Source: a virus
Direction: 5' to 3' (one strand)
IMG/VR virus record: IMGVR_UViG_3300045912_000072
Coordinates: 1-35,202 of that record
DNA: 35,202 nucleotides
Part shown: piece after piece, positions 6,552 to 16,739 of the stretch
Layout of the letters: each line of letters opens with the position of its first letter
Numbering within the stretch: the first letter of the stretch is position 1
Translations under genes and position numbers: made by a program
Notes under the pieces: model-generated
Databases searched by the model: none
What the model was told of the DNA's origin: nothing
Seen by the model: only the letters and a program-made list of their open reading frames with translations

Positions 6552-6766
6552 GATGAAAAATCCTCCATGTTCTTAAATCTGATTTTTACACCGTCTTGTT
6601 TCACCATAACAGAAACATCTTCAGGTGTAACTGTGACCGACTGCTCTAACTCTTTCAGATATTGAATATACCGCGTCATCATCTCGATGACGACCGCCAA
6701 CTCTTGCTGGCTCGGCTGCTCTGGTAACATCTCCAGCGCGGATTGCAGGGTATCTTCAAGCGACAT
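6530..6766 (-). CDS. Small acidic protein between initiator and helicase
   Basis: A 78-residue acidic protein (MSLEDTLQSALEMLPEQPSQ...) with two predicted helices, then a strand pair (VSVMVKQDGVKIRFKN). It overlaps both neighbours (start inside the initiator gene's end, stop inside dnaB's start), so it is translationally coupled. The position suggests a replication accessory such as a helicase loader or regulator, but it lacks an ATPase motif and no family is recognised. Confidence 0.75.
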   Translation of the reverse strand: MSLEDTLQSALEMLPEQPSQQELAVVIEMMTRYIQYLKELEQSVTVTPEDVSVMVKQDGVKIRFKNMEDFSSWMQQSM

Positions 6767-7679
6767 GCTTCCTCCTTCCTGGATTTGGTACGGCTGTTCG
6801 CTCCATCTCCTCTATCTCCGCAAGAACATCTCTATCTTGCGACGCGCGGGTTTCGCGCGGCGGATTGGCAATGTCTATCGCCGTGCGTCTCACGGAATGT
6901 AAGTCCACGCACGGCAGCCCGCTGGACACCAACTTACGCACGGCGGCGGCGATATGCTCTGGCTGCACGTTCGCCTCGAACATCTCGCGCAACGCTCGGC
7001 GATAGCCTTTGACGCCGTCCAGCGGCATGACGATGTCTCGCTCCTGCATAAACGCCAGCGCCGCCGCAACGTATTTTTCCGCCTGGACGCCGGTCCCGGT
7101 GGCTATCAGATTTGCCACGTCCAGCATCCGTTTCGTTTTCTCTGAAAGAAGGTCGGTTTCGGTGACCTGCTCGCCGTGAGCGATTTTCCAGTCTAACGGC
7201 GAGTTGGGAATTTTCGGCGCGTCAGCGCCATTTAATGGTTTAATGATGGTTAATGATGGTTTAAGTCTACCGGCTTGACTCGCGGAGTCAACCGGCTTGA
7301 CTCGCGGAGTCAACCGGCTTGACTCGTCCGAGTCAACCGGCTTGACTCCTGTATCTTGAGGCAGTTTCCCCCCCAGCGCCTTGAGCGCCTCGACGTTTAT
7401 GGCATAGTTGTTTGTCTGATGTCTGGATTTTCCGCGAAAAATGATTAGTCCATTGTGTAGCAGCGCGTCATAGGTGTTGAGTATTCCCTGCCTGCTGAGC
7501 GCGGTTTTTATTTCCATTTTATCTAGACCTGGATAGATGCCTTCTCCGTCATCGCTGGCGTGGTCTGCCATAGCCAGCAAGACAAGTTTAGCGGTACTCG
7601 CTTTTGTAACGTTTCCGTCGGCGTCCTTCAGGTCTTGAAACTCTGTTTCAAAAATGAGCGACATCAGTTTTATGCTCAT
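6756..7679 (-). CDS. Replication initiator-like protein (helix-turn-helix, O-type)
   Basis: The 307-residue protein opens with a winged-helix-like domain (about residues 20-105; TASTAKLVLLAMADHASDDG is the usual start of phage replisome organisers), a low-complexity linker encoded by iterons (residues about 110-140), and a helical C-terminal domain (about 170-290). This layout, DNA-binding N-terminus, iterons inside the gene and helicase gene next, parallels lambda O/P and DnaD-like initiators. A strong AGGAG site precedes ATG 7679. A terminator-bearing leader directly upstream probably controls expression. Confidence 0.75.
   Translation of the reverse strand: MSIKLMSLIFETEFQDLKDADGNVTKASTAKLVLLAMADHASDDGEGIYPGLDKMEIKTALSRQGILNTYDALLHNGLIIFRGKSRHQTNNYAINVEALKALGGKLPQDTGVKPVDSDESSRLTPRVKPVDSASQAGRLKPSLTIIKPLNGADAPKIPNSPLDWKIAHGEQVTETDLLSEKTKRMLDVANLIATGTGVQAEKYVAAALAFMQERDIVMPLDGVKGYRRALREMFEANVQPEHIAAAVRKLVSSGLPCVDLHSVRRTAIDIANPPRETRASQDRDVLAEIEEMERTAVPNPGRRKHVA
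7231..7348. repeat. Iterons plus AT-rich tract: candidate replication origin
   Basis: Two perfect 22-bp copies (7270-7291, 7292-7313), one 23-bp variant (7314-7336) and a partial fourth (7337-7348) share CCGGCTTGACTC. Each full unit contains the palindrome TTGACTC-n3/4-GAGTCAA. On the left is an AT-rich stretch with three GGTTTAATGAT-like direct repeats (7231-7266). Iterons plus an AT-rich unwinding element inside an initiator gene is the arrangement of lambda-type origins. Confidence 0.7.
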
Positions 7680-7694
7680 TATTTACTCCTATGA

Positions 7695-7829
7695 TAAAAA
7701 ATCCCTTTTGTGGACGCTCTGCGCCTTATGGCAGTGCCGGCTATCTCGGCTTTGCACAAAGCGCCCACAAAAGGGATTGATAGCCTTTCCCGCTGCCATA
7801 CGGGGTGACACATTTCTCGTGCCACGTTG
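7695..7829 (-). promoter_or_regulatory. Structured leader with terminator (candidate attenuator)
   Basis: Read on the - strand, a long hairpin (14 perfect base pairs, 7765-7778 with 7700-7713, extended to about 22) ends in a T6 run: an intrinsic terminator just before the initiator gene. Upstream, CCCG-TATGGCAG-CGGG (7789-7804) shows an 8-base loop complementary to CTGCCATA in the terminator loop (7727-7734), and GGCTATC (7779-7785) is complementary to GATAGCC in the same loop (7739-7745). A further hairpin, GTGGCAC/GTGTCAC, lies at 7805-7825. The alternative pairings enclose the terminator's 5' arm and could block it. Confidence 0.75.
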
Positions 7830-8441
7830 TCATTCTATCATAATTCGGCTTTTTTCGCTACTCTCTTTGTAATCCTCCCAGCACTTCAGCAAATACTCGC
7901 GCGCCTCGTCAGCGTCCAGGTCGCGGAATATCATGGCAATACGCCGCCTGACCAACTCGTACAGGTCTAATTCCTGCGCGTCACTATCTTCACGCTTCCG
8001 CAGCGTTTTGGCGATAGCCAGCAAGCCGCCGATGGTCACCTCATAGCCGCTGGCGACTTTTTCGTCAACGTATCTGTGAAAATCTTCTTCAGGAATTTGC
8101 GCCAACAACTGCCAGCGTTCGGCTTGCTTTGCTGTAATGCCAATCTCGCTGTACGTAGGCGGCGCGTCAGGCGATGACACGATGTCATCGCCTGCGAGAT
8201 TTGCCTGTATCTGCCCGCGCGCTCCAGGATTTTTCGGCATCTCCAGCAGGAATTGACCTGCCTTGCGTGCCGCCATGATGGACGCTATTTTTGCCTGCTG
8301 CGCCGCTTCGTACAATCCACGAGCGGCATAGAACGCCTGCGCCGCGTCAGCGAGGGACTTCAACTCGATTGCCTCGATGACGCTTACGGCGCGGTCGAGC
8401 ATTGTCTGAAATTCAGTCAGCGTTAGCAGGCTCTTGTTCAT
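7830..8441 (-). CDS. Phage protein with ParB/DUF3102-like helical core
   Basis: A 203-residue helical protein. The segment KAGQFLLEMPKNPG followed by TYSEIGITAKQAERWQLLA is the recurrent pattern of phage and plasmid proteins in which a helix-turn-helix-like ITxxQxxRWQ block follows a Gly-rich loop; the family is of unknown exact function. The C-terminus is acidic and helical. It overlaps the end of the upstream gene by 29 bases. It ends 150 bases before the initiator gene, and that gap holds the attenuator-like leader. Role in replication regulation is possible. Confidence 0.7.
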   Translation of the reverse strand: MNKSLLTLTEFQTMLDRAVSVIEAIELKSLADAAQAFYAARGLYEAAQQAKIASIMAARKAGQFLLEMPKNPGARGQIQANLAGDDIVSSPDAPPTYSEIGITAKQAERWQLLAQIPEEDFHRYVDEKVASGYEVTIGGLLAIAKTLRKREDSDAQELDLYELVRRRIAMIFRDLDADEAREYLLKCWEDYKESSEKSRIMIE

Positions 8442-8817
8442 CTTTCGCCTCGAACATCTTCATCGGTCCTGGCTGGTCGGCGATTGCCTCAAGAACGATG
8501 CCGCACCAGTGTTCCAACTCTGGACGACCGCTCCATCGTCCTCCAGCGTCTTTGAACACGAAATTGCCGTATTCATCGCGTTGGAAGACAAACCGAAACA
8601 GCGCGTACCACTCGGCGTCGGTCAACTCGCGCGAACTGGTCTTGCCAAAAAGCGCGCGGAGCAGCAACTTTCGATTTTCATTGCTTCCACACGCGCTATT
8701 CAGCGCATTGATGCACGCGCCGCGCAGTCCTTCATGCGAGATGACAAACAGGTCTTTTGCGCCGCCGGCTACAATGTGGTCAATGTGCGCTTTGATTTGC
8801 TGGTAATTCGTAATCAT
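8413..8817 (-). CDS. Hypothetical protein, 134 aa
   Basis: A soluble protein (MITNYQQIKAHIDHIVAGGA...) with mixed helix pattern, an RALFGKTSSRELTDAEWYAL segment and an acidic end. Overlaps the next gene by 29 bases. No motif is recognised; located in the replication arm. Confidence 0.7.
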   Translation of the reverse strand: MITNYQQIKAHIDHIVAGGAKDLFVISHEGLRGACINALNSACGSNENRKLLLRALFGKTSSRELTDAEWYALFRFVFQRDEYGNFVFKDAGGRWSGRPELEHWCGIVLEAIADQPGPMKMFEAKDEQEPANAD

Positions 8818-9765: not shown

Positions 9766-10794
9766 TTACTCGAAACCGAGTTCCTTGAGGGTCTTTTTAG
9801 TGTCTTTTTTCTGCTCGGTGGGAGCGTCCATGTTGTAGTCGCTCTTCAAGACGATTTTGATGGCTTCGCGCAGGCGCTCGTCTTCGGTTTGCAGATAGAG
9901 TTCATTGAGACTTTCCGGGTCGAGTTCGGTCAAAAAACGCTGACCGCGCTTTGTCTCAATGATAATCTTCTCTGCGTCTTCGTATGTAATCGGCTTATCC
10001 GCCGGCGCGTCTTTGCGCTCGTCATCATCTTCTTCGATGATTTCCGCATCCGCATCAGCGGATAAAGCCTGTACGAGTTGCGCGTTTTCTGTTCCGCTCA
10101 AATCCGCCCATGAGAGAAGTTGACGCAAAACCGTCTTTTTCTCCATGACCTCGCGTTTTTCTCTGTCGCTCCAGTTCGGGTTTTTTTCGTATTCTTTGAC
10201 GTATTTCCGCGCATGGTCTTCGATTTCGCCGACCGACATGTAAAGCGACTTCTCGAAGCCGTTTTTCATCTTGAAGTATCCGAGCCAGCCGATAATGCGG
10301 CGGTCGGACTTGCGGCGGTTGGTCACGTCAATATAGTTGACAAGGCTTTTCGCTGGGTTGTCGGCGATGAACCCGTTTTGCTCCTGAACGACGTGCATGC
10401 CTGTGCGCGGGTCTTCCAGAACGCGCTGACCTTCGTATACTGGAGACACGTTGATGTTCCAGTATTTTCCAGTCCGCATTGCCAGCGCATGAAGACCTTT
10501 ATAATGCGCGATGAATTGCGCTTCGTAAGCCTGCTTTTGGTTGTTGTAGAATGGCACGAGCCAGGCTTGCTTTACGGCTGGGTCACACGAAAGTCCGAGC
10601 GATGCGGCGCGAAGTGCGGAGCGGAGGATTGACTCTGGCGAGCATTTTTGCAATTGCGGCGATGCGGATACAGCGATGATGACGCTTTGAATATACGGTC
10701 GCGCGTTTTTCTCGCCGAGCAGTTCCTCGAAGCGCTTGACGACATCTTCGCTTTTCATGTACTTTACGATTGATGCGTTATTTGATGTGTTCAT
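9766..10794 (-). CDS. recT: RecT-family single-strand annealing protein
   Basis: The 342-residue protein anneals complementary single strands during phage recombination. Family hallmarks: RFEELLGEKNARPYIQSVII, CSPESILRSALRAASLGLSC (the ...A..GL..DP core), AWLVPFYNN..YEAQFIAHYKGL and the YWNINVSPVYEG strand. The C-terminal 100 residues are acidic, then Lys-rich, as in other RecT proteins that bind helpers. No RecE/YqaJ exonuclease is adjacent; the PD-(D/E)XK-like protein at 34301 is too small and distant to call its partner. Confidence 0.93.
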   Translation of the reverse strand: MNTSNNASIVKYMKSEDVVKRFEELLGEKNARPYIQSVIIAVSASPQLQKCSPESILRSALRAASLGLSCDPAVKQAWLVPFYNNQKQAYEAQFIAHYKGLHALAMRTGKYWNINVSPVYEGQRVLEDPRTGMHVVQEQNGFIADNPAKSLVNYIDVTNRRKSDRRIIGWLGYFKMKNGFEKSLYMSVGEIEDHARKYVKEYEKNPNWSDREKREVMEKKTVLRQLLSWADLSGTENAQLVQALSADADAEIIEEDDDERKDAPADKPITYEDAEKIIIETKRGQRFLTELDPESLNELYLQTEDERLREAIKIVLKSDYNMDAPTEQKKDTKKTLKELGFE

Positions 10795-14913: not shown

Positions 14914-16140
14914 ATGGCAAAACCGCGATCGCGATGGAGTCTCATCAAAATCAGACTTGGCGATATTCAAGATTATTCAGGCAACCCGCGCATGAGTACA
15001 AAAGCGCAGGCAGAGCGCATTATCGCCAGTGAGAAAAAATTCGGGCAGCCACTACCGTTCCTTGTCGGCCCCGCCGTTGACGGGCGTTATCCTCTCCTGG
15101 ACGGACACCAGCGTAAGGCGGCATGGCTGACGGTGTACGGCGAAGACTTCCTTGTAGACGCGATGGTATCCGACCGTCCGCTCACAGACGAAGAACACCG
15201 TGAGATGATTATCACGCTGCACGCCGGCGCTACTGGCTCGTGGGACTGGGACGCGCTATCATCGTGGCAGCCGTCCGACTTGAAATCGTGGGGCATGGAT
15301 GAGGCGACACTGAAGCAATGGAATAATGACGCCAACAATCTGAAGGAAATGTTACGCGCCGAAATGCCAACGGCAGACGTTGAGCCGCAGATTGACCGCG
15401 CCGAGGAACTGCGTGAGAAGTGGGGCGTCCAGACTGGAGACCTGTGGCAACTCGGAGACCATCGTCTCATTTGCGGCGACTGCACCGACCGCGCAGTGGT
15501 GGAGCGGGTGATGGGAGGGGAGAAGGCGGGCGTGGTTGTAACCGACCCACCATGGAATGTCGGCTGGAAGTACAGCGAATATAAAGATGATTTAACGCCA
15601 GAAGAATACAAAAACTTTAGCGATAGATGGAGAGAAAATGCGGAAAGAACAGGGGCTGATTTGTTTTTCGTTGCTATGTCAATGAAAAACTATAAGTTTT
15701 TTCATTACTGGTTTCCTATGGCTGAACGGATATTTGCCGAGTGTCAAAACTTTGTACAGCATACCAACGTATACATGCAATACGCTTTTAATCCAATACT
15801 TGTTTGGAATAATCGCAAAGATAAAAAAAAGAGCGAAGCAGGGAAAAGAGATTATTTTATAGCCGAAACCAGTATAACAAAAAGTACGCCAGACAAAGAG
15901 CTAGCGAAGGTGAATACCGCCACTAGATGGCTGCCAACTGTTGAATATATGGTTAGTTTTTCAAACAGCGACGATATTATTTACGAACCGTTTGGCGGAA
16001 CAGGTACAACCATCATCGCCTGCGAGAACCTGAAGCGCAAGTGCCGCGCAATCGAGATTAGTCCAGGATATGTCAGCGTAACTCTGGAAAGGTATTATCA
16101 AGTATTCGGAATTTTGCCAGTTTTATTGGAGCGCAAATGA
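14914..16140 (+). CDS. ParB-like domain fused to DNA methyltransferase (mosaic)
   Basis: The 408-residue protein has an N-terminal ParB/sulfiredoxin-like domain (about residues 10-95: LGDIQDYSGNPRMS, LLDGHQRKAAWL), a linker, and an N4-cytosine/N6-adenine methyltransferase domain (about 160-400) with motif IV TDPPWN and motif I YEPFGGTGTTIIACE placed last, the beta-class order. The phage pattern of a ParB-methyltransferase before terminase genes is common. From about 15560 to 16000 the DNA turns AT-rich with different codon use, covering the target-recognition part. The 3' end meets an inserted HNH gene, and a displaced methyltransferase tail remains at 16761-16838. Confidence 0.9.
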   Translation: MAKPRSRWSLIKIRLGDIQDYSGNPRMSTKAQAERIIASEKKFGQPLPFLVGPAVDGRYPLLDGHQRKAAWLTVYGEDFLVDAMVSDRPLTDEEHREMIITLHAGATGSWDWDALSSWQPSDLKSWGMDEATLKQWNNDANNLKEMLRAEMPTADVEPQIDRAEELREKWGVQTGDLWQLGDHRLICGDCTDRAVVERVMGGEKAGVVVTDPPWNVGWKYSEYKDDLTPEEYKNFSDRWRENAERTGADLFFVAMSMKNYKFFHYWFPMAERIFAECQNFVQHTNVYMQYAFNPILVWNNRKDKKKSEAGKRDYFIAETSITKSTPDKELAKVNTATRWLPTVEYMVSFSNSDDIIYEPFGGTGTTIIACENLKRKCRAIEISPGYVSVTLERYYQVFGILPVLLERK

Positions 16141-16739
16141 CCACCTTCTGTCCAACTGTGACGTATAGAGCAAGCACGACAATATCTGGAACGCCCGCTT
16201 GTTTTAGCCCCGCAACTTTCGCAATGCTTCGGAAAGAATGCGGGGGTGGAAAGTTTTCTTCCATGTTCCTTTTCGTGACAAGTTATACACAAAGTAATGC
16301 CGTTAGATACGTCAAGAGCAAGTTCTGGATGTTTTGCAAATTCTTTTATGTGATGGGCGTGCAGTTTTCCGCCTACTTGACCACATTTTTGGCATTTATA
16401 ATCGTCTCTTTTATAAACTGCAATTCTCCACTTTTTCAATTCCCCTTTAAGCCCACTACGTTTTCTTGTAAGAGAACTTCCACCCTTCCACGCTGGGGCT
16501 TTATCTCCAACAAGGTTTTTCGAACGCCAAGCAGAAGCACAAATTCGAGAACAAAATTTAGACCGCTTATCTCTACTGTTGAATTCATTTCCGCACCATT
16601 TACAAATTTTTGGTTGTGGTGGATTACGGGTAGACCAACAGGCTTTAGAGCAGTAATGAGCCGTTTCAGAACGGTATGCTTTTACCTTAAACGGTTTTCC
16701 GCATTTTTTGCAAATATTTGTAACTTGTGTGTTTTTCAT
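16098..16739 (-). CDS. HNH homing-type endonuclease with zinc fingers
   Basis: The 213-residue protein, on the strand opposite to its late neighbours, has two N-terminal Cys4 fingers (CKKCGKPF...HYCSKAC and CKWCGNEF...KFCSRIC), an HNH nuclease core (CQKCGQ...LHAHHIKEFAKHP...NGITLCITCHEKEH) and a last Cys4 finger (CESCGAKT...RYCRAC). It is AT-rich and overlaps the methyltransferase end by 43 bases. These features, with the duplicated methyltransferase C-terminus on its far side, mark a mobile, free-standing homing endonuclease. A TATAAT box lies just upstream of its start. Confidence 0.92.
   Translation of the reverse strand: MKNTQVTNICKKCGKPFKVKAYRSETAHYCSKACWSTRNPPQPKICKWCGNEFNSRDKRSKFCSRICASAWRSKNLVGDKAPAWKGGSSLTRKRSGLKGELKKWRIAVYKRDDYKCQKCGQVGGKLHAHHIKEFAKHPELALDVSNGITLCITCHEKEHGRKLSTPAFFPKHCESCGAKTSGRSRYCRACSIRHSWTEGGHLRSNKTGKIPNT

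Follow-up and report, generated by a model that had tools for sequence, protein, structure and literature searches.

The leader ahead of the initiator gene

The window, meaning the whole 35,202-nucleotide stretch of viral DNA that was analysed, carries on its minus strand a ~130-nt leader (7825 to 7696) between a gene of unknown function (8441-7830) and an O-like replication initiator gene (7679-6756). A sequence-only reading of this DNA had named the downstream gene a replication initiator, and the matches of its product to O-like and replication initiation families in PHROGs bear this out. The next gene after the initiator encodes a DnaB helicase. Within the initiator gene there are 3.8 tandem copies of a 22-bp iteron, each containing the palindrome TTGACTC..GAGTCAA; as in lambda O-type phages, these repeats probably form the origin. 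The two minus-strand genes just upstream of the leader (7830-8441 and 8413-8817) gave no Pfam, PHROG or PADLOC match, and the nearer one is, by position only, a candidate partner of the leader. The features of the locus are as follows.

6756-7679, minus strand: O-like replication initiator, 307 aa (PHROGs 1032, 6643, 8540 and 391)
7264-7348, minus strand: 22-bp iteron, 3.8 tandem copies, inside the initiator gene (Tandem Repeats Finder)
7832-7840, minus strand: extended -10 promoter-like sequence TGATAGAAT (sequence and pattern scan; a consensus match only, with no good -35)
7819-7825, minus strand: 5' arm of the first hairpin, P2, GTGGCAC (in the minimum free energy (MFE) fold at all transcript lengths of at least 42 nt)
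7805-7811, minus strand: 3' arm of P2, GTGTCAC (growing-transcript folding)
7801-7804, minus strand: 5' arm of hairpin P3, CCCG (MFE fold)
7793-7800, minus strand: block A, TATGGCAG, the 8-nt loop of P3 (sequence, inverted repeats)
7789-7792, minus strand: 3' arm of P3, CGGG (MFE and growing-transcript folding)
7779-7785, minus strand: block B, GGCTATC, in the linker abutting the terminator (sequence, inverted repeats)
7754-7778, minus strand: 5' arm of the terminator-like stem, S2 (fold, inverted repeats)
7739-7745, minus strand: block B', GATAGCC, within the S2 loop, complementary to B (inverted repeats, loop shuffles, hand alignment)
7727-7734, minus strand: block A', CTGCCATA, within the S2 loop, complementary to A (inverted repeats, loop shuffles, hand alignment)
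7700-7724, minus strand: 3' arm of S2 (fold, inverted repeats, alignment with a relative)
7696-7701, minus strand: T6 tract of the terminator (sequence)
7686-7690, minus strand: Shine-Dalgarno (SD) sequence AGGAG, not part of the terminator stem (sequence; unpaired in the MFE fold)

Read 5' to 3', the order is therefore the extended -10, P2, P3 with block A, AAA, block B, the 5' arm of S2, B', A', the 3' arm of S2, T6, the SD and the ATG. The S2 arms are 25 nt each and 88% Watson-Crick paired, higher when G.U pairs are counted. This G+C-containing stem is directly followed by the U-tract and stands upstream of the gene's SD, as expected of an intrinsic terminator. The sequence-only reading had described a T6-tailed terminator between a gene and the initiator SD, with two upstream blocks complementary to its loop and the first displayed as an 8-base loop on a CCCG stem. 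All of these elements were found at the places given when the minus strand was read, and the P3 stem pairs CCCG at 7804-7801 with CGGG at 7792-7789. The extended -10 overlaps the stop codon of the upstream gene and predicts a transcription start near 7825. On the plus strand, a consensus scan of 7550-7830 detected no sigma-70-type match and no extended -10 that could serve as an antisense promoter, bearing in mind that host promoters may differ.

We compared the fold of the leader with that of shuffled sequences. The transcribed strand had an MFE of -71.2 kcal/mol compared to a shuffled mean of -42.1 (z -7.3, reached in 0 of 200 shuffles), and the complementary strand folded more weakly (-57.0, z -4.9). 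When the 30-nt loop alone was shuffled, a nested complement of the observed length (8+7 nt) turned up in 3 of 20,000 cases, a figure that is optimistic because the window was chosen for this feature.

Leaders in a related phage contig

Searching viral contigs with the large terminase revealed a relative, L064, a phage contig of 19,958 bases whose terminase and helicase are 61% and 40% identical to those of the window. Its first leader (10073-10219) has the same arrangement in the same order before its own initiator gene: TGGTATAAT, a GGGCGAAAGCCC hairpin, a CCAC/GTGG hairpin with the loop TGTGGCAG (the counterpart of block A), AAAC, GGTCATA (the counterpart of block B) and a long stem arm homologous to that of S2, followed by TATGACC, TGCCAC, the second arm, a T7 tract at the same place as the T6 of the window, and the start region with its SD and ATG. 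The initiators of the two phages could not be aligned (E 0.12) and neither could their upstream genes, which indicates that the leader was kept while its neighbours differ; both initiators match PHROG replication-initiation families. The first leader of L064 also has a pre-emptor-like pairing, GGGAGTTC/GAACTCCC, which takes in the stem arm.

The stem was aligned between the two phages using MAFFT without structural information. Among 18 aligned pairs, 12 were unchanged, one was changed on one side, four were changed on both sides and one was broken. In this alignment 97% of cells were paired, compared to 33-58% when the partners were slid, and a shuffle control, weak with two sequences only, reached the observed count in 48 of 500 trials. 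Automatic alignment misplaces the 5' half of the two sequences, and P3, A/A' and B/B' were aligned by hand, anchored on the shared T.TGGCAG..GG.AAA..GG. Of these 19 pairs, 11 were unchanged, two were changed on one side, six on both sides (including two of the four P3 pairs) and none was broken; the A' and B' strands were placed by pairing, so the count as a whole leans towards structure. Every loop pairs with the leader it belongs to and with none of the others. The sequence-only reading had named loss of the complementary blocks in relatives as evidence against its proposal; in L064 the blocks are kept, with compensatory changes.

The contig has a second leader (16544-16648), located before a gene for an HNH+AP2 endonuclease-like protein. 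It consists of the promoter TGGTAAAAT, TGTCTGGAGA, CGGGTG, an arm, CACCCG, TCTCCAGACA, the other arm and a T-tract, and it has a third complementary pair, TTTGCCTG/CAGGCAAA. In all, three interleaved blocks of 10, 6 and 8 bp are complementary into the terminator loop. This leader is without a P3 hairpin, and we therefore regard it as an analogue of the design rather than clearly a homologue. Since it precedes an HNH gene, the device is not specific to initiators. TGGTATAAT and TGGTAAAAT stand in their leaders at a spacing equal to that of the extended -10 in the window, and the only two TGNTANAAT sites in the 20-kb contig are exactly those of its two leaders. The window has an HNH-like gene of its own, recognised by eye (16098-16739, minus strand), with a promoter-like TGCTATAAT directly ahead of its start; this gene runs opposite to the surrounding late genes.

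The orthologous position of the first L064 leader makes it an independent check on a feature for which the window had been selected. Shuffling its loop gave an equally good complement in 86 of 20,000 cases (~4e-3), and a simulated background, in which the descriptor matched 13 times in 5.06 Mb of strand, gave ~5e-4 by arithmetic for a 180-nt leader. Folding is better for the sense than for the antisense strand in all three leaders, and in two of the three G.U pairs are commoner on the sense strand. Collectively, these results, which compare two phages and three leaders only, make it probable that the folded leader is a genuine on/off switch for replication and not a chance pattern.

A frame opened by GTG at the predicted transcription start site (7825-7679, minus strand) runs for 48 codons without a stop and closes with TAATG, where it overlaps the initiator start. 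We considered and rejected a leader peptide here: the matching frame in L064 has no start codon, suggesting that the conservation in the leader is more likely that of an RNA than of a peptide.

Folding order and a proposed switch

Growing-transcript folding was performed on all three leaders. In the window, the nested A/A'+B/B' fold, which encloses the 5' arm of the terminator, is the MFE structure at transcript lengths of 99-105, when A' has just been transcribed, and the growing terminator is the MFE structure from length 114. In L064 the nested fold is the MFE structure at about 110-115 in the first leader and at 71-101 in the second. In each case the terminator fold takes over later, once its 3' arm is out. 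The alternative fold is thus predicted to form earlier than the terminator, as in an attenuator, and the two would be geometrically incompatible rather than overlapping in sequence. For the complete leader of the window, the terminator fold is 20 kcal/mol better than the antiterminator (-66.5 versus -46.8), which means that the antiterminator must act kinetically; in L064 the terminator fold is ~6 kcal/mol better in the first leader and about equal in the second. ViennaRNA folds nested structures only, and pseudoknotted or kissing states fall outside these scores. B runs straight into the terminator arm with no linker, and the geometry therefore leaves hardly any room for the two loop helices beside a fully formed 25-bp stem. 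The sequence-only reading had proposed that the upstream pairing competes with or stabilises the terminator. The competition is seen in the nested folding, and stabilisation appears less likely on geometric grounds.

On a narrow balance of judgement, we favour the model that the leader is a transcription attenuator, that is, a co-transcriptional RNA switch with a loop-anchored antiterminator; termination itself, the direction of control, the trigger and the function in vivo are what we infer in it. Transcription would begin at the extended -10 just upstream, and the 5' domain would fold first, leaving block A exposed in its hairpin loop and block B in the linker that follows. Once RNA polymerase has copied the terminator loop, the A/A' and B/B' helices could form. 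They would surround the 5' arm of S2 and hinder completion of the 25-bp stem, chiefly of its lower, A/U-rich part by the U-tract, so that the polymerase would read through and the initiator would be made. If A or B were occupied, or if A/A' and B/B' came apart in time, the terminator would be completed and a leader RNA of ~130 nt released. A or B could be occupied by a protein or, in trans and like the CI RNA of phage P4, by the released leader RNA itself; polymerase pausing is another possible trigger. Our searches found no regulator or ligand for the leader.

An unlikely alternative, though one of some weight, is that the hairpin is a strong constitutive terminator that insulates the initiator gene and does no switching, on this view A/A' and B/B' would cap the hairpin through kissing or pseudoknotting, either stabilising it or shielding the RNA once it is released. 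Among the full-length folds in the window the terminator is best by a wide margin, and the display of A as the 8-nt loop of P3 suits a kissing interaction. However, B abuts the stem without a linker, so that steric hindrance would seem to forbid both pairings once the 25-bp stem is complete. Moreover, an insulator placed before the SD of an essential gene and after the only nearby promoter would silence that gene. Rather improbable, in our estimate, is a terminated leader that works as a trans-acting small RNA, its strands pairing with nascent leaders to set the initiator level or immunity, as P4 CI RNA does. The promoter and the U-tract do bound a compact RNA of ~130 nt, complementary strands of one leader could pair in trans, and P4 has demonstrated the principle (PMC4825925). 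No other target was found, however, as no 12-mer of the leaders recurs elsewhere in the window or in the L064 contig.

Could the interleaved inverted repeats instead be read as DNA, as a cruciform, an operator or part of an origin? Palindromes in DNA would also give changes on both sides, and the adjoining gene is an initiator. Against this, all three leaders fold better as sense than as antisense strands, two of them with more G.U pairs, and the U-tract, the SD and the promoter are all oriented towards the gene; on these grounds we favour RNA over DNA. The likely origin iterons, moreover, lie elsewhere, within the initiator gene, and the second leader stands before an HNH gene and not before an initiator, all of which leaves a DNA element very improbable. 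We give the least credence to an ordinary long terminator with complementarity arising by chance. Loose descriptor matches do occur by chance, as the simulated strand showed, and this feature was the reason for choosing the window, but the arrangement recurs independently at an orthologous site, in the same order and with compensatory change.

Known leaders and searches for further kin

Accounts of how phages control initiator synthesis usually centre on promoters or repressors. In the rep leaders of plasmids pT181 and pIP501, a terminator lies just before the start region and upstream sequence prevents its formation; in pT181-type control, a pre-emptor pairs with the 5' arm of the terminator, and an antisense RNA flips this pairing (PMC5703833). 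The likeness to the leader described here lies in the initiator gene, the terminator before the start region and the upstream counter-pairing. In contrast to pT181-type leaders, A and B of the window pair with the terminator loop and not with its arm, and the consensus scan revealed no antisense promoter. Only the first L064 leader comes closer, as its pre-emptor-like pairing includes the arm.

The sequence-only reading knew of no phage leader of this kind, which does not hold for the general idea: in satellite phage P4 (CI RNA, seqA, seqC) replication genes are blocked by premature termination through pairing within the leader RNA, and the processed CI RNA acts as an antisense RNA on two sites (PMC4825925). 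The window shares with P4 mutually complementary segments in the leader of a replication operon. It differs in that its pairing is a compact, intramolecular helix of 15 bp that enters the terminator loop in two blocks. The architecture itself, if not the general idea, appears new for phages, and no description of it was found in the open-licence literature.

Pseudoknot pairing that competes with a terminator during transcription is also found in preQ1-I, ZTP and fluoride riboswitches. In contrast to these, the leader has no Rfam riboswitch match (Rfam 15 gave 0 matches at E<=10 for 7400-8100 and 0 at the gathering threshold for the whole window, and for the L064 region only sub-threshold chance matches to eukaryotic microRNA hairpins). 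The sequences of A, B and the stem, moreover, differ widely between the two relatives, unlike a ligand pocket. The rep leaders of IncB, IncI-alpha and IncL/M plasmids form pseudoknots by loop pairing and act on translation near the start site. They resemble the present leader in the loop pairing and in the initiator gene that follows; here, in contrast, the SD is not part of the structure, and the hairpin resembles a terminator.

Tentatively, the leaders may represent a new class among phage leader RNAs: a promoter-proximal switch whose 5' domain docks two of its strands into a long terminator's loop, so that the block is topological and involves no sequence overlap. Such a module would stand before unrelated early genes (initiators and an HNH endonuclease), its fold kept while its sequence and the downstream gene change. 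If so, antitermination by strands docking into the terminator loop would be a design unlike that of pre-emptor attenuators, and RNA attenuation of replication initiators would extend beyond plasmids and P4 to dsDNA phages. The design lends itself to simple compensatory-mutation tests.

Further kin were sought in several ways. Gapped duplex-energy scans for T-tailed hairpins did not discriminate well and were replaced by an exact descriptor. Viral contigs searched by the initiator, the upstream gene, the helicase and the portal yielded no useful close kin, as did genome contigs, and the exact block pattern gave only chance matches in coding regions of viral contigs, which were rejected. A blastn search of the element against phages and plasmids detected nothing real, and a scan based on helicase alignments, with poor patterns, returned only the L064 relative and distant helicases. 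Eight cultured phages with initiators of the same type had no comparable leader, and in seven of them there was no unusually folded U-tailed stretch upstream of the initiator. The eighth, Arthrobacter phage AWGoat (L081, 1268-1518), has a strongly folded leader of 251 nt (z -7.1) before a RepA-like initiator. This leader is of a different design, with AGATGACACACA/TGTGTGTCATCT and an SD, AGGAGAT, for which ATCTCCT is a possible pairing partner.
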